A stretch of 31,270 nucleotides of DNA from Spirogloea muscicola. Lineage: Eukaryota; Streptophyta; Zygnematophyceae; Spirogloeales; Spirogloeaceae. This document shows positions 5,775 to 29,000 of the stretch, piece after piece (position 1 is the stretch's first letter; each line of letters opens with the position of its first letter). Location: contig WELB01000439.1 in NCBI GenBank assembly GCA_009602725.1, positions 1-31,270 on the forward strand, in the 5' to 3' direction. The notes beneath the pieces are model-generated. The model ran no database searches. It was not told where the DNA came from and worked only from the letters and a program-made list of their open reading frames with translations. The position numbers were made by a program, and so were the translations under genes.

Positions 5775-6440
5775 TTGGTCCATTCTCTTGGGCTGGCCTT
5801 TCCCAGCCACCACTCAATCTGGCCGCGCTTTCCTGCTTTCGTCAAATGGGGTGACTGCCTTTCTGAGTGTTACTGAGTGATTCGTAGCTGCTTTTGTTCT
5901 TCTTCTTTTGTTTCTTTGTGTGCTTGCTTTTCTTAGCGCTTCCCCTGGCCCCCTTCTCGTATTCTTATCTCCTTTGGGCTGACTTTTCCAGCCCCTATCT
6001 ATCCTCATGGCCGAGCACTTTCTTCTTTCTTCCCTTTGCCAACCGCTCTTCTCCAAGGGCGAAAGTCCAGCCCCTATCCTCAATGGGCGAAAGAACACTT
6101 TCTTCTTTCCTTCCCCGCGGCTCATCGCTCTCATTTGCGACTGCTAACCAGACGTCCCCAAGTGGTTATCCCACATGGTCCCCCTCGCTGACTTATGTTT
6201 CAGCGCTTTTCAACGCGGCAGACTGCCTCGCCCAATTGTATCGCATGCACCTGTCAGTGTCGCTGTAGCGGTCAATGGCACACGCGTTGCATCTGCGTGC
6301 CGGTCCGCTCTTTGGCTGCAGCCCTTCTGGCTCTCTGTTTCTTCTTTTAGGGGGCTGGCTTTTGCAGCCCCTATCCTCAATGGGCGAGCACTTTCTTCCT
6401 CTGGCTATAAAGAGAAGTGTAGACAGTGGGACCCCGGAGA
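5775..6440 (+). repeat. Retrotransposon tail hairpin repeats, plus orientation
   Basis: Contains GGGCTGGCCTTTCCCAGCC at 5790, the CACTCAATCTGGCCGCGCTT block that recurs at about 1250 and 29572 in the other orientation, a GCGCTTCCCCTGGCCCCCTT block at about 5936, and GGGCTGGCTTTTGCAGCCCC at about 6352 followed by CTATCCTCAATGGGCGAGCA. The order (untranslated block, hairpin, CCTCAATGGGCGAGC) is that of the element 3' end. No intact reading frame. Confidence 0.65.
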
Positions 6441-16459: not shown

Positions 16460-17047
16460 NNNNNNNNNNNNNNNNNNNNNNNNNNNNNNNNNNNNNNNNN
16501 NNNNNNNNNNNNNNNNNNNNNNNNNNNNNNNNNNNNNNNNNNNNNNNNNNNNNNNNNNNNNNNNNNNNNNNNNNNNNNNNNNNNNNNNNNNNNNNNNNNN
16601 NNNNNNNNNNNNNNNNNNNNNNNNNNNNNNNNNNNNNNNNNNNNNNNNNNNNNNNNNNNNNNNNNNNNNNNNNNNNNNNNNNNNNNNNNNNNNNNNNNNN
16701 NNNNNNNNNNNNNNNNNNNNNNNNNNNNNNNNNNNNNNNNNNNNNNNNNNNNNNNNNNNNNNNNNNNNNNNNNNNNNNNNNNNNNNNNNNNNNNNNNNNN
16801 NNNNNNNNNNNNNNNNNNNNNNNNNNNNNNNNNNNNNNNNNNNNNNNNNNNNNNNNNNNNNNNNNNNNNNNNNNNNNNNNNNNNNNNNNNNNNNNNNNNN
16901 NNNNNNNNNNNNNNNNNNNNNNNNNNNNNNNNNNNNNNNNNNNNNNNNNNNNNNNNNNNNNNNNNNNNNNNNNNNNNNNNNNNNNNNNNNNNNNNNNNNN
17001 NNNNNNNNNNNNNNNNNNNNNNNNNNNNNNNNNNNNNNNNNNNNNNN
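16460..17047. other. Assembly gap
   Basis: 588 consecutive N between the GC-rich putative first exon of the receptor kinase and a truncated LINE-A copy. The promoter and 5' UTR of the kinase gene and the missing part of the LINE-A endonuclease region are probably hidden here. Confidence 0.98.
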
Positions 17048-17805
17048 ACCAGATCGACACGCCGCGTCCGAGGGACCCCCTTGCGGAGCTGGACGGGCAT
17101 CACCCCGGTGCTCTCCAACGCCACTTGATATCCCGCCTCCTTGACGATGCCATATATGGCGTCACGTAGGAGGTTGTGGGAGCCCGTGCGCTCACTGCCT
17201 TTGGCACACCTGAGCATGTGGTCACCCATGAGCACTGCATCATGCTCAACCAGCCCACATTCACATTGGGTCACCCCTGCCAAGCACAGGGATGGTAAGC
17301 CAAGACGGCGGCGCATAGCATCGCAAAACAAAGCATTTCCCATCCGCAAGCCCGCATGCAAAGGCAAAGCGCGGAGCCACTCAGACGCTCCCAGAGACGA
17401 TACAGATAGGAGCCGAGCCTGGCCTCGAGCATCCCCTTGGAGGAGACTCCGGAGATGCTCCAGTGGTTGCTCGTCTGCAGCACGGGAAAACCGCGATTGA
17501 GCCTTAACATCAGAAACGTCAGCCCAGGCAGCAAAGCTAACAGGCTCATTCACCAGAGGCGGGTATGCGGCAAAGAGGTCCTGTTGGCATGCTTTGAGAG
17601 TCACTTGGAAAGGCAGACTCCCCTGAACCACGTTACTGATGTGAGGCGCCAACACACGTTGTTGCTCAAGGAGGAATCGTCCAAGGGGAGAGCAACCCAG
17701 CTACGCAAGCCAGAGGCTGCTGCAAGGGCGCGACCAGCCCGGCGATGCAAAGCGATCGCCTGGGACCGCTGTAGGCACATAGATAAACGCATGCGGTAAA
17801 CTAAT
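17048..17805 (-). mobile_element. LINE-A fragment: C-terminal part of ORF, cut by the gap
   Basis: The minus strand is open from about 17655 to the gap. It encodes the post-RT region (VVQGSLPFQVTLKACQQDLF), a LRRRLGLP-type segment (here MRRRLGLPSLCL), a zinc knuckle CECG...GDHMLRC, a HNLLRDA motif and VPRTRRVDL, the start of a restriction-like endonuclease motif. At 17690-17805 the frame switches to a C-terminal tail segment (RRAGRALAAASGLR). The two pieces are joined at similar AAASGLR/AAGLR sequences, so this copy is probably chimeric. Confidence 0.8.
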
Positions 17806-18085
17806 ATTGAAAGAGCGGCTGTGAAAGCCAGCCAGATGCATACAGGTGTTCATGACAGACCCACAGGCTAGGCAGCCAGGGCGCTCTTAGTAGGGGTTAC
17901 TGAGTGCTTCGTAGCTGCTTCGTTTCTCTTTTGTGCTTGTTATTCTTTGTACTTCCCCTGGCCCCTTCTCGTCCTTTGTTCATTCTTTTTTGGGCTGGCT
18001 TTTTCCAGCCCCTATCCTCAATGAGCGAGCCCTTCACCTCTTAGTAACCCCGTGTCAGCAGTAGGAAGTCAGATGAGCTGAGGCG
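17806..18085 (-). mobile_element. LINE-A 3' UTR with nested insertion
   Basis: In minus orientation: CTGACTTCCTACTGCTGACA (protein end, LLLT.GY type), then GCGCCCTGGCTGCCTAGCCT, and finally GGCTGGCTTTCACAGCCGCT followed by CTTTCAATATTAG. It repeats, in tandem, the tail at 18086-18230. The unit is split by the 147-base insertion at 17891-18037. Confidence 0.75.
17884..18044 (+). mobile_element. Nested 147-bp retrotransposon tail with target-site duplication
   Basis: Host sequence CTCTTAGTA is present on both sides (17884-17892 and 18038-18046; 7 to 9 bases duplicated depending on where the element starts). The unbroken host sequence is visible in the sister copies at about 18180 and 21700. 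The insert, in the opposite orientation to its host, begins in the last codons (GGGGTTACTGAG) and ends with the hairpin GGGCTGGCTTTTTCCAGCCC and CTATCCTCAATGAGCGAGCC. It is a 5'-truncated or SINE-like insertion of the tail variant. Confidence 0.8.
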
Positions 18086-18505
18086 AATGCGGCTGCTGAT
18101 ATTGAAAGAGCGGCTGTGAAAGCCAGCCAGATGCATACAGGTGTTCATGACGGAGCCACAGGCTAGGCAGCCAGGGCGCTCTTAGTAACCCCGTGTCAGC
18201 AGTAGGAAGTCAGATGAGCTGAGGGGAGGAAGAGCAACCCCGCTGCGCAAGCCAGAGGCTGCTGCAAGGGCGCGACCAGCGCGGCGATGCAAAGCAAGCG
18301 CTTGGAAACGCTGTAGCGACATAGACAAACGCATGCGGTAGCAGGACACAAGACCCGAAGGGACCGAGCCACCGGGAAGGGCTGCACCCTGTCCCCGGCG
18401 CCGCTGGTCAGCTTGAGATGCCAGCAGCGAAAGCAACGAGGACCACCGACCCCCGTAACACCCATGGATGTCCATGGCCAGGGGGTAAAAGGTATCACCC
18501 GCGAA
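18086..18505 (-). mobile_element. LINE-A 3' end (C-terminal codons plus 3' UTR)
   Basis: The minus strand encodes GDTFYPLAMDIHGCYGGRWS, ASQADQRRR, SCYRMRLSMSLQRFQALALH, RRAGRALAAASGLRSGVALP and ends SSDFLLLTRGY at 18182. The 3' UTR ends in CAGCAGCCGCATTCG at about 18086. It is almost identical to the copy at 21601-22390, so it is young relative to the other fragments. It is 5'-truncated at about 18505, where LINE-B sequence in plus orientation begins. Confidence 0.85.
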
Positions 18506-18850: not shown

Positions 18851-19195
18851 CAAGCTGACCAGCGGCGCCGGGAATAGGGTACAGCACTTCCTGGAGGCTC
18901 GGTGCCTTTGGGTCTTGTGTCCTGCTACCGCATGCAATTGTCTGTCCCTCCAGCAGCCGCTTGACAGCGCTCCCAAGCGCTTGCTTTGCACCGCCGCGCT
19001 GGTCGCGCCATTGCAGCAGCCTCTGGCTTGCGCGGCGGGGTTGCTCTTCCTCCCCTCAGCTCATCTGACTTCCTACTGCTAACCCGGGGGTACTAAGAGC
19101 GCCCTGTCTGCCTAGCCTGTGGCTCCGTCAAGAACACCTTATGCATCTGGCTGGCTTTCACAGCCGCTCTTTCAATATCAGCAGCCGCAGATCTT
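18846..19195 (+). mobile_element. LINE-A 3' end, degenerate
   Basis: Carries the C-terminal codons in broken frame (GGSVPLGLVSCYRM-type, then HRRAGRALAAASGLRGGVAL and SSDFLLLTRGY with stop TAA at about 19094), followed by the 3' UTR with GGCTGGCTTTCACAGCCGCT at about 19150 and TCAATATCAGCAGCCGCAGA at about 19174-19193. Frameshifts make it a dead copy. Confidence 0.75.
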
Positions 19196-21110: not shown

Positions 21111-23446
21111 AGAGGACCTCCACCCACCTGCGGAGGCAACCTCTTGCCTACCCGTGGAGCTCTGCTGCTTTGCCGGCGGCGCTGTGCCACTTCGGCAGGT
21201 CTGAGCACGCACGAGCGGGCCTGCGTGCATTCTGCTGACAGATAGGCGCAGCAGGCAGAGGCAGTAGCCACTGCTCGCAGAGCCCCTTCAAGAGGGGCGA
21301 TGCCAACACCACCACCAGGGCCTACCCTACGGCAGAAAGTAGCGGTGGCGATGGGCGGAGAGCGTGGACGTCTCCAAGATCCTGCTGACGACCAACGCGC
21401 AGCTCCTTAGGCACATCCCAACCTGGGCTCGACCTCACATTCGGCGAGCCCTTTGGCCTCTCCTGACACGTCTGGCTTGTGACAGCGAGGATGAAGCTGC
21501 ATGGGCGGAAGTTCTGTTGTTCCCGCCACTTTGGCTTGATCGCCTGCCGCAGGGGAAGGCGGGTCGCAAGGAGCTTCAGCTATACGCGTCCACCTATTTG
21601 GGGAAGCGGCTGCTCATATTAAAAGAGCGGCTGTGAAAGCCAGCCAGATGCATACAGGTGTTCATGACGGAGCCACAGGCTAGACAGCCAGGGCGCTCTT
21701 AGTAACCCCGTGTCAGCAGTAGGAAGTCAGATGAGCTGAGGGGAGGAAGAGCAACCCCGCTGCGCAAGCCAGAGGCTGCTGCAAGGGCACGACCAGCGCG
21801 GCGATGCAAAGCAAGCGCTTGGGAACGCTGTAGCGACATAGACAAACGCATACGGTAGCAGGACACAAGACCCAAAGGCACCGAGCCACCGGGAAGGGCT
21901 GCACCCTGTTCCCGGCGCCGCTGGTCAGCTTGAGATGCCAGCAGCGAAAGTAACGAGGACCACCGACCCCCGTAACACCCATGGATGTCCATGGCCAGGG
22001 GGTAAAAGGTATCACCCGCCGGGTGGTCCTTGTACTTGTGCAACTTCTTCTGTTCGGCCACCTTCACGGCATAGCCCGTGTCAGAAGTTACGGGGCCCTT
22101 CGTCCGGAAGCTGTCGGTTAGGACGACGTCCATGAGAAGCCGCTTGCCACCTCCCAGGGGGACGCCGACCAGATCGACACGCCGCGTCCGAGGGACCCCG
22201 TTGCGGAGCTGGACGGGCATCACCCCGGTGCTCTCCAACGCCACTTGATATCCCGCCTCCTTGACGATGCCATACATGGCGTCACGTAGGAGGTTGTGGG
22301 AGCCCGTGCGCTCACTGCCTTCACACCTGAGCATGTGGTCACCCATGAGCACTGCATCATGCTCAATAAGCCCACATTCACATTGGGTCATATTTGCAGG
22401 AGGGGCGTGGCAGCTGCTACTTGTAAAGCACCAAGCAGCTGTGCAACTCGCAAGCCAACATAAGGCCCGCCACGTCAGAACATGATGTCAAGGAGGCGGG
22501 CAAGCGACGTGCCATCCAATTCGACGAGCCGGCGACCTTGCAAGGGCTGCCCAAGCCTTGGGAGCCCTCCACACCAGCACTGCATGATGCGGCTACCTTG
22601 GCCGCACTAGAGCAGCGCCATCCTCCAGCCCCGGGAATTTCAGATACTTGAATAGCTTCACGCCTGCTCAAGCCGTGGACCTGGACCCGGTGTCTTGCGT
22701 CGACGATCATAAGAAGCCGCAAGGCAGTCGCGGGAGATCCAGGGAGCACTATGCGAGAGCTGTATGTGGAGGAAGACTGGGATATTCTGATCTGCCTCAC
22801 AGGGTCGCCCGACATGTTGCGCGTGGACTCCGTATCTACCGTGTAGGCGCAGTCCTTTGCACAAGCAATCTCATTGCTTTTGCAATCTCTTTGCAGAAAG
22901 GACAGCGGGCAAGGTCCTAGGTTCAATGGGGAAGGTCCTGGGGCGCCTCGTGGGGCGCACCCTGATCATGCAGATTCAGGACGATGCCCAGGCGCACTTC
23001 CATCCCCACCAGTTAGGGCCAGGTTGCCTGCTGGCGCTGAGACCCTGGTGCACAGGGCATGGACGGCAATGGATGTCAACCCCCATTGGCTGGCCTTAGA
23101 GCGTGGACTCACAAAATTCAATGCCATGGATCGGCAGGTCATTGTCAAGCAGCTAAGGCAGTACGTCCCCACCTTCCTCCCTCACTTCCACTGGCTCGCC
23201 ATCTGCAATATTGCGAGGGGCACGGAAAACTCTTTGGCTGTTTTGCAGTCAACAATGGGGATACGGCAAGGTGATCCTATGGGTGGTTTTCTCTTTGCTC
23301 TGGCGCGTCTTGTGCCTTGCGCAACAAGGCGAGCGTTCACCCTGGCGTCCTCCTCTCGAGCTATGCGGATGATACCACGCTCCTTGGCCCCCCAGAGGAG
23401 GTGCTGCGAGCTTTTGGCACGCTCCAGCACCAGCTCCACCAGCTCC
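21105..23446 (+). mobile_element. LINE-A copy (N-terminus to RT), interrupted
   Basis: Starts with EDLHPP and a broken zinc finger (LCRRRCATSAGLSTHERAC at about 21165-21225). It continues with TWARPHIRRALWPLLTRL, DEAAWAEVLLFPPLWLDRLP and QGKAGRKEL. The insertion at 21601-22390 splits it, and it resumes with WQLLLVKHQAAVQL. It then holds reverse-transcriptase motifs with several frameshifts: VLGRLVGRTLIMQIQDDAQA, a VNPHWLAL block, RQGDPMGGFLFALA and SSYADDTTLLGPP (about 23366-23400). Stops and shifts make it non-functional. At 23446 it jumps to the N-terminal region of the next copy. Confidence 0.85.
21601..22390 (-). mobile_element. Young 5'-truncated LINE-A insertion with TSD
   Basis: Open on the minus strand from about 22391 to the stop at 21699. 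It encodes the zinc knuckle CECG...GDHMLRC, HNLLRDAMYGIVKEAGYQVA, RTRRVDLVGVPLGGGKRLLM, DVVLTDSF, AVKVAEQKKLHKYKDH and the end LLLTRGY, about 230 residues without a break. The DL...DV...AE..K..KY pattern fits a PD-(D/E)xK restriction-like endonuclease. The 3' UTR ends at GAGCAGCCGCTTCCC (21601). TATTTG flanks both ends (21595-21600 and 22391-22396) and the host frame resumes beyond it. Confidence 0.88.
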
Positions 23447-26037
23447 AGCGACCAATGCGCAGCTCCTACGACACATCCCGTATTGGGCCGGCCCCACATA
23501 CGGCGAGCCCTTCGGCCCCTCCTGACACGTCTGGCTCGTGACAGCGAGGATGAGGCTGCATGGGCTGTGTTTGTGTTGTTTCCGTGACTCTTGCTTGGTC
23601 GCTTACCACAGGGGAAGGCAGGTCGCAAGGAGCTGCTGCTGCGCCTCCATCTGTTTGAAGGTGGGGAGTGGCAGCTGCTACTTGCAAAGCACCAAGCGGC
23701 TGCGCAACTCGCGCAAGCCAACTATCGGCCCACCTCGTCGGAATCCGATATCAAGAAGGCGGGCAAGCGACGTGCCATCCGATGTGGACGAGCCGGCGAC
23801 CTTGCCAGGGCTGCCTAAGCATTGGAGCCCTCCACACCAGCACCGCATGATGCGGCAACCTTGGCCGCACTCGAGCAGCTCCATCCTCCGGCCCCGCGAA
23901 GATTACATACATGGATAAAGAGCCTTCATAGCCTGCTCAACCGGTGGACCTGGACCCGGCTGCCTTCCGTCGGGCGATTGTGAGTAGCCGCAAGGCAGTC
24001 GCCGGGGGTCCATCGGGCATGCTCTTTGAGCACTTGCGGGAGCTGTATGGGGAGGACGACTCGGAGGATTTCAATCTGCTGCTTAGGTCGCACAACATGT
24101 TGCACGTGGACACCTCACCCAACGTGTAGGCGCTGTCCTCTGCACAAGCAATCTCATTGCTTTGCAGAAGGACAGCGGGGGAGTGCGTCCTAGGTCGATG
24201 GGGGAGGTTCTGTCGCGCCTCGTGGGGCGCACCCTAATCATGCAGATCCAGGACGATGCCCAGGCGCACTTCCATCCCCACCATTGTGGGGCTGGGATGC
24301 GTGCTGCCGCTGAGACCCTGGTGCACGGGGTACGAGCGGCACTGGATGGCAACCCCCATTGGCTGGCCTTGAGCGTGGACGTACAGAATGCCTTCAACGC
24401 CGTGGCTTGGCAGGTTATCGCCGAGGAGCTAAGGCAGTAATTTCCCACCCTCATCCCTCACTTCCGATGCATGTATGGCTCGCCGTCTGCATTGTTGTGG
24501 GGGGCAGGGAGTTCTTTGACTGTTTTGCAGTCAAAGACGGGAACACGGCAAGGTGATCCCATGGGTGGTTTTCTCTTCGCTCTGGCGCATCACCGTACTT
24601 TGCGCAACACGGCGAGCGCTCACCCTGACGTTCTCCTCCCGAGTTACGCGGATGATACCACGCTCCTCGGCCCCCCAGTGGAGGTGCAGCAAGCTTCGGC
24701 ACGCTTTAGCACCAGCTCCATCTTATCGGGCTTTGGTTTGATACGGCAAAGTGTTCCGCCTGGTCCCCCGATGGCATCCCTGTTTCCCTCTTGTTGCCTA
24801 CATCTTGTCAGACACCAGAGGACGGCTTGAGGATCCTGGGAGTCCCTTTAGGGGACTTTCTCGGAGTGCGCTGTCCTTCGCTGGTCTCCTGGGATGTATG
24901 CAGGTCCTCTTTAGAGCTTCCCACCCTCTGGGACTCTCAGTTGGCATTGGCCATTTTGACCAGAAGTGTTGCACAGCGGCCGTGTGACCTTTTGCAAACG
25001 GTCCCACCTTCGGTCACCTTGGATGCTGTCTATGCAACATCAATGGGAAGCTTTAGCGATGCCTTGCGGATTTGATTCCTCACCCAATCCTAGAGCAGTC
25101 CCCAACAGCACTGTTTAATATACGCTGCCCATACGTCACGGTGGGCTTGGTTGTCGCCCCTTGGTCCGCCTGTACAGACCAGCCTACCTTAGCTGCTGGG
25201 CTCAGGTGGCTTCGTCCACATCTGGACGATTCCTCCTTGAGCAACAACGTATAGTAGCGCCCTATATGAATAACGTAGTTCAGGGAAGTCTGCCTTTCCA
25301 AGTGACTCTCAAAGCATGCCAACAGGACCTCTTTGCCTCCTACCCGCCTCTGGTAAAAGAGCCTGTTAGTTTTGCTGCCTGGGCTAACGTTTCTGCTATG
25401 AGGGCTCAATCGCGATTTTACTGTGCTGCAGATGAGCAACCACTGGAGCATCTCCGGAGTCTCCTCCAAGGGGATGCTCGAAGCCAGGCTCGGCTCCTAC
25501 CAGTTTCGTCGCTGGGAGCGTCTGAGTGGCTCCGCGCCTTGCCATTGCATGTGGGCATACGGATGGAGATGCTTATTGTGCAGTGCTCTGCACCACCGTC
25601 TGGGCTTACCATCTCTGTGCTTGGCAGGGGTGACCCAGTGCAAATGTGGGCTTATTAAGCATGATGCATTGCTCATGGGGACAACCACATGCTCAGGTGT
25701 GCCAAACAGTGAGTGCACGGGCTCCCACAACGTCCTACATGACGTTGATGATGCCGTACATGCGATGTATGGTATCATCAAGGAGGTGGGATATCAAGTG
25801 GCGTTGGAGAGCACCGGAGTGATGTCAGTCCAACTTCACAACGGGGTCCCTCGGACGATCTGGCTGGCTTTCACAGCCGCTCTTTTAATATCAGCAGCCG
25901 CTTTCCTGACGAGGCGTGTCAATCTGGTGGGCGTCCTTCTGGGAGGTGGCAAGCGGCTCCTCATGGATGTAGCCCTCACTGACAGCTTTCGTAAAAAGGG
26001 CCCCATTACTCCTGAGGCCGGCTATGCTATCTTCTGA
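23446..26037 (+). mobile_element. LINE-A copy, most complete plus-strand copy (degenerate)
   Basis: Order of recognisable parts: N-terminal HIP..RPHIRRAL-like region (23450-23600), EGGEWQLLLAKHQAAAQLAQ (about 23660), KAGKRRAIRCGRAGDLARA, PAAFRRAIVSSRKAVAGGPS (about 23960), GEVLSRLVGRTLIMQIQDDA, VDVQNAFNAVAWQVI (about 24380-24420), RQGDPMGGFLFALA, SYADDTTLLGPP (about 24640), GLRILGVPLGDFL (about 24825), VVQGSLPFQVTLKACQQDLF (about 25275), a degraded knuckle CKCG...HAQVC-like region, and the endonuclease start RRVNLVGVLLGGGKRLLMDV (about 25912). It has several stops and shifts, and is 3'-truncated at GYAI (26037), where it meets the inverted copy. Confidence 0.88.
25854..25912 (+). mobile_element. 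49-bp terminal-hairpin insertion with 5-bp TSD inside LINE-A
   Basis: GACGA at 25854-25858 and 25908-25912 flanks 49 bases that match only the extreme 3' end of LINE-A: TCTGGCTGGCTTTCACAGCC, then GCTCTTTTAATATCAGCAGC and CGCTTTCCT. Sister copies at 22170, 17070 and 26270 lack the insert and read straight from the Arg-Thr codons into RR(V/I)(D/N)L. Insert plus duplication is 54 bases, 18 codons, and stays open. Confidence 0.85.
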
Positions 26038-29000
26038 TGTATCTGCCTTGGCCGTAATGGCACCCCTGATGACACCCGTGGATGTCCTTGGCCAGTGATT
26101 AGAAAAATTCCCAGCCCTGCTCGTTCTTGTACTTCTGTAGCTTCTTCTGCTCGGCCACCTTCACAGCATAGCTGGCCTAATGGGGCTTTTCCTGTGGAAG
26201 CTGTCAGTGACATCGACGTCCATGAGGAGCTGCTTTCTTCCAGTGGGACAATCAACAGATCAACACGCCTTGTTCGAAGGACCCCATTGTGAAGTTGAAC
26301 AGGCATCACACCGGTGCTCTCGAGAGCCACTTGATATCCCGCCCCCTTCACGATGCTATACATTGCGTCTCGTGGGAGGTTGAGGGAGCCTGTGCGCTTG
26401 CTTGGCACACCTGAGCATGTGTTTGCCCATGGGCAAGGCATCCTGCTCAATTAGCCCACAACTCATAGTGGGTGACCCTGCCAAGCACATGGATGGTGTC
26501 CAAACGGCGCAGAGCATCTCCAAGTGCCAGCCGCGTACAAAGGCGAGGCACGGAGCTACTCAGACGCTCCTAAGAACCGTAGGGATGGGTGCCAAATGGG
26601 ATGGGAGCTAAAAATGGCCCCGAGCATCTCCTTGAAGGGAACAGAGAAGGAGATCTCTGTGGTTTCTCATCTGCAGCACGGGAATTCCGTGATCAAGCCG
26701 TCAGATCAGAAACATAGCTGAGGCAGCAAACCTAATAGGCTCTTTTACCAGAAGCGGGTAAGAGGCAATGAGGTCCTGTGGCATGCTTTACAAGTCACTT
26801 GGAAAGGCAGACTTTCCTGAGCCACGTCACTGATATGGGCCGCCGATACACATTGCTGCTCAAGGAGGAATCATCTGGACAGGGACGAAGCCACCTGAGC
26901 CCAGCAGCCAAGGTACTCTGGTCTGAACATGCGGACCAAGGGGCGAAAACCACGCCCACCATGACGTATGGGCAGTGTCCATTAGTAAGTGGTTCTCGGG
27001 ACTGTTGTAGGAGTGTGTGAGAAATCAAATGGGCATGGCATTGATGAAGCTTGCCATGAGTGGATGCATATACATCATTCAAAGTAGCTGAAGGTGAGAC
27101 CACTTGAAGCAGGTAACACGGCCGCTGGGCAACACTCCTAGTCAAAGTGGCCAATGCCAAATGAAAGTCTCCAAGGGTGGGAAACTCTGGAAGGACCTGC
27201 ATATATCCGCTGAGGCGAGCAAGCATTACGTCAACCAAGAATAAAGGGTCCCATATTGGCACTCCCAAGATCCTCAACCACCACCTGGTGTCCAACAAGA
27301 TGTGGTTTACGAGAAGGGAAAGAGGGATGCCATGAAAGGACCAGGCGGAGCACTTAGCTGTATCAATTTCAAACCCGATATGCAGGAGCTGGTGCTGGTG
27401 CTAAATACGCCAAAAGCTCGAAGCACCTCCTCTTGGGGGGCCAAGGAGCGTAGTATCATCCGCGTGGCTCGGGAGGAGCAGCCAGGGTGAACGCTCACTG
27501 TGTTGCGCAAGGCTCGGTGATGCGCCAGAGCAAAGAGGAAACCACCCATAGGGTCACCTTGCCGTGTCCCTGCCTTTGACTGCAAAACAGCCAAAGAATT
27601 CACAGCCCCCCACGAAATTGCGGATGGCGAGCCATACATGCAGCGCAAGTGAGGGAGGAGGGTGGGAAAGTACTGCCTTAGCTCCTCGGTAATAACCCGC
27701 CAATCGATGGAGTTGATAGGATTCCATGCTCATGGCCTGCCAATGGTGGTGAATGAAATCCAATGCCGCTCGTACCCCATGCACCAGGGTCTCAGTGCCA
27801 GCACGCATCCCAGCCCCACACTGCTGCGGATGGAAAGTGTGTCTGAGCCTTGTCCTGGATCTGCATTATCAGGGTGCTGCACGAGGCGTTCCAGAACCTC
27901 CCCCGCTGTGCTTCTGCAAAGCAACGAGATCACTTGTGCAGACGACTGCGCCTACACAATAATTGAGGTGTCCACGCTCAACATGTTGTGCAACCCCATG
28001 AAGCAGATGAATATCCTCCGAGTCTCCCTCCCCATACAGCTCCCGCCAGTGCTCAAAAAGCATGGCAGAGGGGCCCCCGGCGACCACCTTGCGGCTTCTC
28101 ACAATCGCCTGACGGAAGACAGCCGGTCCAGGTCCACAGGTTGAGCAGGCGTGAAGCTCTCCATCCATGGATTTGAATTTCCCGGGGCCGCAGGATGGAG
28201 CTGCTCAAGTGCGGCCAAGGTTGCCGCGTCATACGGTGCTGGTGTGGAGGGCTCCAATGCTTGGGCAGCCCTTGCGAGGTCGCCGGCTCGCCTGAAGCGG
28301 ATGGCACGTCGCTTGCCCGCCTCCGTGACATCAGCTTCCGACGTGATGGGCCGATAGTTGGCTTGCGCGCGTTGCGCAGCCACTTGGTGCTTTGCAAGTA
28401 GCAGCTGCCATGCCCCACCTTCAAACAGGTGGAGACGCAGCATCAGCTCCTTAGCGACCCGCCTTCCCCTTCCCCTTCCTCCTCAGACCCCATATGGACC
28501 AAGCAAAAGTCGAGGGAGCAACAGAACTACCGTCCATGCAGCTCATATTCGCTATCAAGAGCCAGACATGTCAAAAGGGGCCAAAAGTCTCGCCGTATGT
28601 GAGGCCAACCTCAGTATGGGATGTGCCTGAGGAGCTGCACGGTGGTCGTCCGCAGGATCTCGAAGAGCTGCGCCCATTGCCAGTGTGCTGTAGGCCCTGG
28701 TGGTGGTGTTGGCATCTCCCTCTTGAAAGGGCTCTGCGAGTCCGAGCGGTGGCGGATGCCTCTGCCTGCTGCTCTTAAATGTTAGCAGGACGCACGCAGG
28801 CCAGCTCGTGCATGCTCCGTCCCGCTTTAGTGGCACAGGGGCGCCGGCAAAGCCTGCAGCAGAGCTCCACAAGCGGGCAAGAGATAACCTCCGCAGGCGG
28901 CCGGAGGTCCTCTTGGCCGTGCTCCCTTTCCCCAGGTGCAGCTGATACAGCGGCATCGCCCTCCATGGTTCCGCCAGCACCGCCAGCGCTACTGCCACCA

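Follow-up and report, generated by a model that had tools for sequence, protein, structure and literature searches.

The 49 nucleotides that interrupt an old LINE-like reading frame in a contig of Spirogloea muscicola (WELB01000439.1, 31,270 nt, analysed over its whole length and called the window here) are very probably a severely 5'-truncated copy of the retrotransposon LINE-A, laid down by target-primed reverse transcription in a relict where its in-frame length is due to chance. The identity of the element, the duplication of the target, the empty sites and the spectrum of copy lengths across the genome were observed directly. The insert is a product of ordinary incomplete copying, a known kind of event, with unusually short products.

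A 49-nt insertion in a decayed LINE copy

The original prediction described an exact insertion of the extreme 3' terminus of LINE-A, and both points hold. GACGA stands on either side of the 49 nt, the site is empty at base level in three sister copies (Table 1), and the inserted bases comprise about 44 nt of element with a pyrimidine tail, TTTCCT, behind the LINE-A 3' end. The final A of GACGA doubles as a LINE-A base, giving 1 nt of microhomology. Both flanks of the empty site are visible in sisters B and D, the latter at ~68–70% identity; in C just ~18 bases past the junction can be seen before the Ns. We assign the tail to LINE-A because the coding region of copy B, which matches LINE-A residues 1256–1488 (the endonuclease-like region) at 96%, runs on into the same 3' end as the insert.

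Table 1. Position of the insert, its host, the sister copies and further LINE-A 3' ends in the window
Feature	Position	Strand	Remarks
GACGA, first copy of the 5-bp target-site duplication	25854..25858	+	Single in sisters B and C (as GACGC); single and changed in D
49-nt insert	25859..25907	+	Last ~44 nt of LINE-A (TCTGGCTGGC...CAGCAGCCGC) and tail TTTCCT
Stem-loop GGCTGGCTTTCACAGCC, 5–6 bp	25862..25878	+	Only firm hairpin of the insert
GACGA, second copy of the target-site duplication	25908..25912	+	
Host, relict LINE-A-like copy A (RT, linker, putative endonuclease region)	23382..26031	+	tblastn, 1488-aa LINE-A frame
Sister copy B	22069..22390	-	Empty site ~22185; frame on to 21702, 3' end to ~21601
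Sister copy C	17048..17503	-	Empty site ~17065; cut by N run 16460–17047
Sister copy D, diverged	26165..26679	-	Empty site ~26273; tail-to-tail with copy A
LINE-A 3' end belonging to copy B	21601..21649	-	
Further LINE-A 3' end	18085..18132	-	
Further LINE-A 3' end	19145..19188	+	
LINE-A 3' end with different last bases	17801..17837	-	By eye, LINE-A internal sequence next

The insert is 100% identical over 50 nt to three genome copies, all on other contigs, and 94.6–97.7% identical over 37–49 nt to four LINE-A 3' ends within the window. The stem-loop GGCTGGCTTTCACAGCC has nine matches in the window at up to two mismatches where 0.03 would be expected, so its recurrence is not chance. It takes up only ~17 of the insert's 49 nt, and the full insert shows no folding advantage over shuffled versions (z -0.48; 61 of 200 shuffles equal or better). 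What had been described as a 49-base hairpin is thus a real 49-nt insert, but one in which the hairpin is confined to this short stem-loop. On the minus strand, at 17686–18502, pieces of LINE-A appear to be nested in each other's 3' ends.

Judged from its sequence, the host of the insert is a frameshifted LINE relict. Using tblastn with the LINE-A frame, copy A was matched in frames 3, 2, 1, 3 and 1, that is with four frame changes, and with no match past residue 1367 of 1488; its stop-to-stop segments show stops inside the matched parts. Directly behind the insert copy A has VN against VD in the LINE. The insertion probably postdates its host by a long time, since copy A is ~16–19% different from sisters B and C and the insert is identical to three genome copies. 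Insert and duplication together add 54 bp, or 18 codons, and the frame at 25402–26034 stays free of stops. The claim of an in-frame insertion in an endonuclease-coding region therefore stands as far as the 18 codons go, but the region belongs to a decayed LINE copy rather than an intact gene, and the endonuclease is named from motifs only. We found no sign in copy A that the 18 codons ever belonged to a functional protein. Relicts A and D lie tail to tail at 25200–26680, where in both the match to the LINE stops short of its last codons.

Lengths of LINE-A 3' ends across the genome

We probed the 153-Mb genome with a 22-mer of the LINE-A 3' end (CTCTTTYAATATCAGCAGCCGC), which gave 199 exact matches; the reversed 22-mer gave none in the genome. 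Dropping two duplicates from the first 100 of these listed left 98 distinct copies for the measurement of length. As the sample was picked by a 3' 22-mer its fixed 3' end is built in and is not a result; copies differing from the 22-mer lie outside it, and only some of the remaining 99 places were read. Element length was counted to the last CCGC, with a comparison limit of ~442 nt and junctions that are approximate by a few nt.

The lengths ran continuously from 27 nt to more than 420 nt, with 12 copies below 44 nt, 8 at 44–65, 12 at 66–87, 11 at 88–131, 7 at 132–175, 8 at 176–263, 11 at 264–351, 6 at 352–421 and 23 at 422 nt or above. The shortest held 27, 28, 30, 33, 34, 35, 37, 41, 42, 45, 47, 51 and 56 nt of element and so on upwards; 20 of the 98 held 66 nt or less and 12 held 43 nt or less. 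The 98 copies did not form a size class at 44 nt. The 5' arm of the hairpin was missing in nine, one of which (L072) is weakly aligned. The stop rate per nt seemed higher near the 3' end, at 0.004–0.007 below 88 nt against 0.002–0.004 at 88–422 nt, and a single constant stop rate may not fit. The stretch behind the pieces is pyrimidine-rich, with a fraction of 0.74 in the first 12 nt compared to 0.55 farther off.

The 5' ends were also examined for clustering. The densest 6-nt interval held nine ends (P 0.056 against a smoothed model), and we claim no clustering. We considered the hairpin as a cut-off, given that two selective patterns returned nine starts at the hairpin base and no hairpin-less copies. 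This was dropped, as the patterns cover few nt of the possible 5' ends, at least four of the nine have other 3' sequence (L041, L042, L045 and L046) and no cut-off was visible once the copies were read. Nor do we claim a preference for sites just behind hairpin tails (within 75 nt), where 10 of 74 lay on the same strand and 5 of 74 on the opposite one; a far control stretch of double length gave 10 same-strand and 7 opposite of 53. Four distinct insertions (the duplicates L010/L019, L038, L091 and L098) begin at the same base (TGTATGCAT), which may be chance or a stop site. In L015 and L018 a rearranged stretch precedes the hairpin (ACCTATGTGTTCATGCATGTATGCAT), possibly from fold-back or a template switch, and the two loci look like one duplicated event.

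Target-site duplications and empty sites at other short copies

The original prediction would have been refuted by short matches to the LINE-A terminus that lack duplications or empty sites. This was not the outcome: duplications at other short copies exceeded permuted controls, and three such copies had base-level empty sites. We scored the best exact match near both junctions in 79 truncated copies from all loci read, excluding three duplicates and copies with short or masked flanks, and used 200 permutations of the flank pairs as a control. A duplication of at least 6 nt was present in 33 of the 79, against a permuted mean of 7.0 and maximum of 14.75. For the 23 shortest copies the count was 11, against a mean of 1.9 and a maximum of ~5.5. 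Six of the nine copies without the hairpin 5' arm also reached 6 nt, with L062, L072 and L073 scoring 3, 0 and 4. The automatic score of the window copy is just 4, the fifth base having been assigned to the element. Extra bases were observed at several 5' junctions.

We then turned to empty sites, searching with the joined flanks of 10 of the 18 short sites; L068, L114, L099 and L087 were searched again in a smaller query. The 28 nt of element in L071 sit in a dispersed repeat of which many copies (at 95–98%) are unbroken, and the three of these that we read are empty to the base. For L109 (34 nt of element) an empty copy at base level is 96% identical across the joined flanks; for L068, which has 27 nt of element with AGCC possibly the target's, there is one at ~79%, also at base level. 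No unbroken match to the joined flanks was found for L114, L099 or L087. For the remaining sites of the ten none appeared among the 40 candidates scored, a list crowded by L071, so that this absence means little. As L068, L071 and L109 are insertions that lack the 5' arm of the hairpin, the hairpin is not the boundary of a moving unit.

Origin of the insert

A 5-bp duplication alone is weak evidence; what carries the case for truncation is the empty sites together with the pattern across the family. We infer an RNA intermediate, a nick in the target and an early stop. The LINE-A ribonucleoprotein would have nicked an old LINE-A relict, with cDNA synthesis primed at the 3' end of the LINE-A RNA. 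About 44 nt and a short pyrimidine tail would have been copied before synthesis stopped, and the 5' end would then have been joined to the target, leaving the 5-bp duplication and the 1 nt of microhomology. Binding of the RNA precedes copying in target-primed synthesis, and how much is copied is settled only later, so the 49-nt product is silent on what the enzyme recognises. The suggestion that the 49 nt are themselves what the reverse transcriptase recognises is not borne out: the lengths are continuous and extend to copies lacking the hairpin 5' arm, the pattern that recognition of a longer RNA and an early end to copying would give.

It could be argued that the hairpin tail is the mobile unit, a minimal SINE-like cassette: the LINE-A reverse transcriptase would recognise short hairpin-ending RNAs and insert each of them in full. 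The duplication and empty sites are compatible with this, as are a second insertion of almost equal length with a 10-nt duplication (L044, described below), the occurrence of the hairpin in other families with different 3' ends, and the relative frequency of short copies (20 of 98 at 66 nt or less). Such a cassette, the form in which the original prediction had cast the hairpin, is nevertheless very unlikely: in the 98 copies the lengths are continuous and show no constant 5' boundary (27, 28, 30, 33 nt and so on), and of the nine copies that lack the hairpin 5' arm three have base-level empty sites. Slightly less probable again is that microhomology-mediated repair closed a break in the target with a short stretch copied from LINE-A DNA or cDNA. 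The single nucleotide of microhomology, the short duplication and the extra bases at several 5' junctions would all suit such filler DNA, but duplications exceed the permuted controls and a pyrimidine-rich stretch lies behind the pieces, although the sample in which this was seen, chosen by the LINE 3' end, covers 3'-end pieces only. The presence of several LINE-A 3' ends in the window brings to mind gene conversion or recombination with a longer nearby copy as the route by which the tail entered the relict. The exact duplication, the lack of LINE-A 3' sequence beyond the 49 nt, and the closer match of the insert to copies on other contigs than to any end in the window leave this explanation with almost no credibility.

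Target-primed reverse transcription, which had been inferred at the outset, is thus the best-supported reading, consistent with the LINE-A tail, the duplication and the empty sites. Truncated human L1 copies offer a comparison; the part of PMC2912911 that deals with them describes short duplications, extra 5' bases and microhomology at 5'-truncated insertions. LINE-A is alike in its variable 5' end, short duplications, extra 5' nucleotides and microhomology. It differs in that its pieces go down to ~23–34 nt of element, in an endonuclease that is restriction-like by motif, and in a pyrimidine-rich tail where L1 has poly(A), as given in a section of PMC4176376. LINE insertions with only ~23–34 nt of element do exist, as the empty sites and the permutation control show, and LINE events that easily escape notice may account for small insertions flanked by duplications in such genomes. 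It also follows that the shortest inserted piece should not be taken as the piece that the enzyme recognises.

The LINE-A element

A search with the LINE-A protein gave at least 152 scored matches, and several open frames of ~1,340–1,490 aa are among the matches listed. At locus L121 the frame runs for 1,488 aa from stop to stop, and its sole Pfam match is RVT_1 (E 3.9e-17). The closest relative of the LINE-A frame among solved structures in the PDB is an R2 protein (E 1.7e-06). Reading the C-terminus of L121 by eye we observed VDLVGVPLGGGKRLLMD, KLHKY and GRW, with V replacing P before the first D. The LINE-A frame also contains a Cys/His set, CECGLIEHDALLMGDHMLRC, and an N-terminal Cys/His finger seen by eye. 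The endonuclease region matched no Pfam family, and single-sequence structure prediction gave a mean pLDDT of 36 and no fold match. A match to Peptidase_C70 in the linker frame (E 0.0011, 19.3 bits with a cut-off of 19) was judged spurious. LINE-A is a non-LTR retrotransposon whose single open frame, up to ~1,490 codons from stop to stop, encodes a reverse transcriptase and, on motifs read by eye, a putative restriction-like endonuclease.

LINEs with a restriction-like endonuclease include the clades CRE, R2, R4, NeSL and HERO, according to the relevant part of PMC4640811, and carry PD..D, KX2KY, GXW and a CCHC knuckle of the form CX2-3CX7-8HX4C, according to that of PMC5678591. As far as these accounts go, LINE-A is similar in having a single frame in which the reverse transcriptase precedes a Cys/His region and sequences that by eye correspond to D-x14-D, KX2KY and GXW, and in R2 being its best match in the PDB. 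It differs in the V for P and in the spacing of its Cys/His set, which departs from that of the knuckle. Unlike single-target LINEs, the LINE-A copies that we read sit in varied sites.

A 3' hairpin shared between families

The sequence GGCTGGC..CAGCC recurs near the 3' ends of at least four other dispersed families (families B–E) with different last bases. Using anchors outside the hairpin, the exact stem was kept in 95 of 115 rows for LINE-A, 22 of 30 for family B, 11 of 18 for C, 6 of 9 for D and 3 of 5 for E, rates that are not unbiased because families B–E were noticed through the hairpin. In the window, family B lies behind a C-terminal coding region that is ~60% identical to LINE-A over 40–42 residues, and has the same hairpin with a different tail; among B–E this link to a LINE protein was seen for B only. 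Hairpin-tailed families are found in the window at 6353, 7290 and ~7573 (plus strand) and at 1151 and 1720 (minus strand), as well as at many loci, and then run into differing sequences of ~25 nt, often with a (TTC)-rich tail. At 709–788 two head-to-tail 40-bp units correspond to the family B end on the minus strand, one without the hairpin 5' arm; they either arose by tandem duplication or mark another minimal tail insertion.

That the hairpin is common to several families makes its recognition by the LINE-A enzyme plausible. Recognition of a 3' stem-loop has been demonstrated for zebrafish L2-clade LINEs, and R2Bm and R2Dm also need their 3' UTR, as reported in a section of PMC4176376. Compared with the stringent-type LINEs ZfL2 and UnaL2 in that account, LINE-A likewise has a short stem-loop near its 3' end that is kept in several families; ZfL2 belongs to the L2 clade, whereas LINE-A is of the restriction-like type by motif.

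Insertions in coding sequence

Among the 33 insertions with a duplication of at least 6 nt, seven added a multiple of three, which is not above the one third expected, and the in-frame length of the window insert looks like chance. In a second case, L044, 43 nt of element with a 10-nt duplication add 60 bp (20 codons) and no stop. Relatives of this frame at seven or more other places match across the junction and leave no room for the insert. The L044 copy itself is broken, with a stop on each side of a 126-codon stretch. L127, the one relative of L044 that we scanned, contains a C-5 cytosine methylase and a zinc knuckle and matches an aspartyl protease at a score short of the curated cut-off, and a retrotransposon of such a kind is named in part of PMC5890265. 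The L044 host looks like the relict of an LTR-retrotransposon polyprotein. We had considered L044 as a lengthened host exon, and rejected this because the L127 domains are retrotransposon-like and the L044 copy is broken. L127 lies at G000:C134 and L126/L044 at G000:C263. The L044 insert ends GT...AG, and a new intron was considered as a candidate.

The idea that such insertions spread peptide cassettes into genes is therefore not supported: the window host is a frameshifted relict, L044 lies in a polyprotein-like relict, and in-frame additions are no more frequent than expected. Among the copies read, none was seen to interrupt an intact host gene. It is conceivable, if rather unlikely, that frequent aborted copying near the priming site is a distinct source of duplication-flanked micro-insertions of 25–60 nt, some of them in frame in coding sequence (two cases, both mobile-element relicts) and perhaps lengthening host exons, with the shared 3' hairpin being the recognised part of the full RNA. 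At L122 (~1830–2400, G000:C198) a 3' part of LINE-A lies antisense, within a few hundred bases upstream of the start of a beta-tubulin-like gene, and an FtsZ-like gene was also seen.
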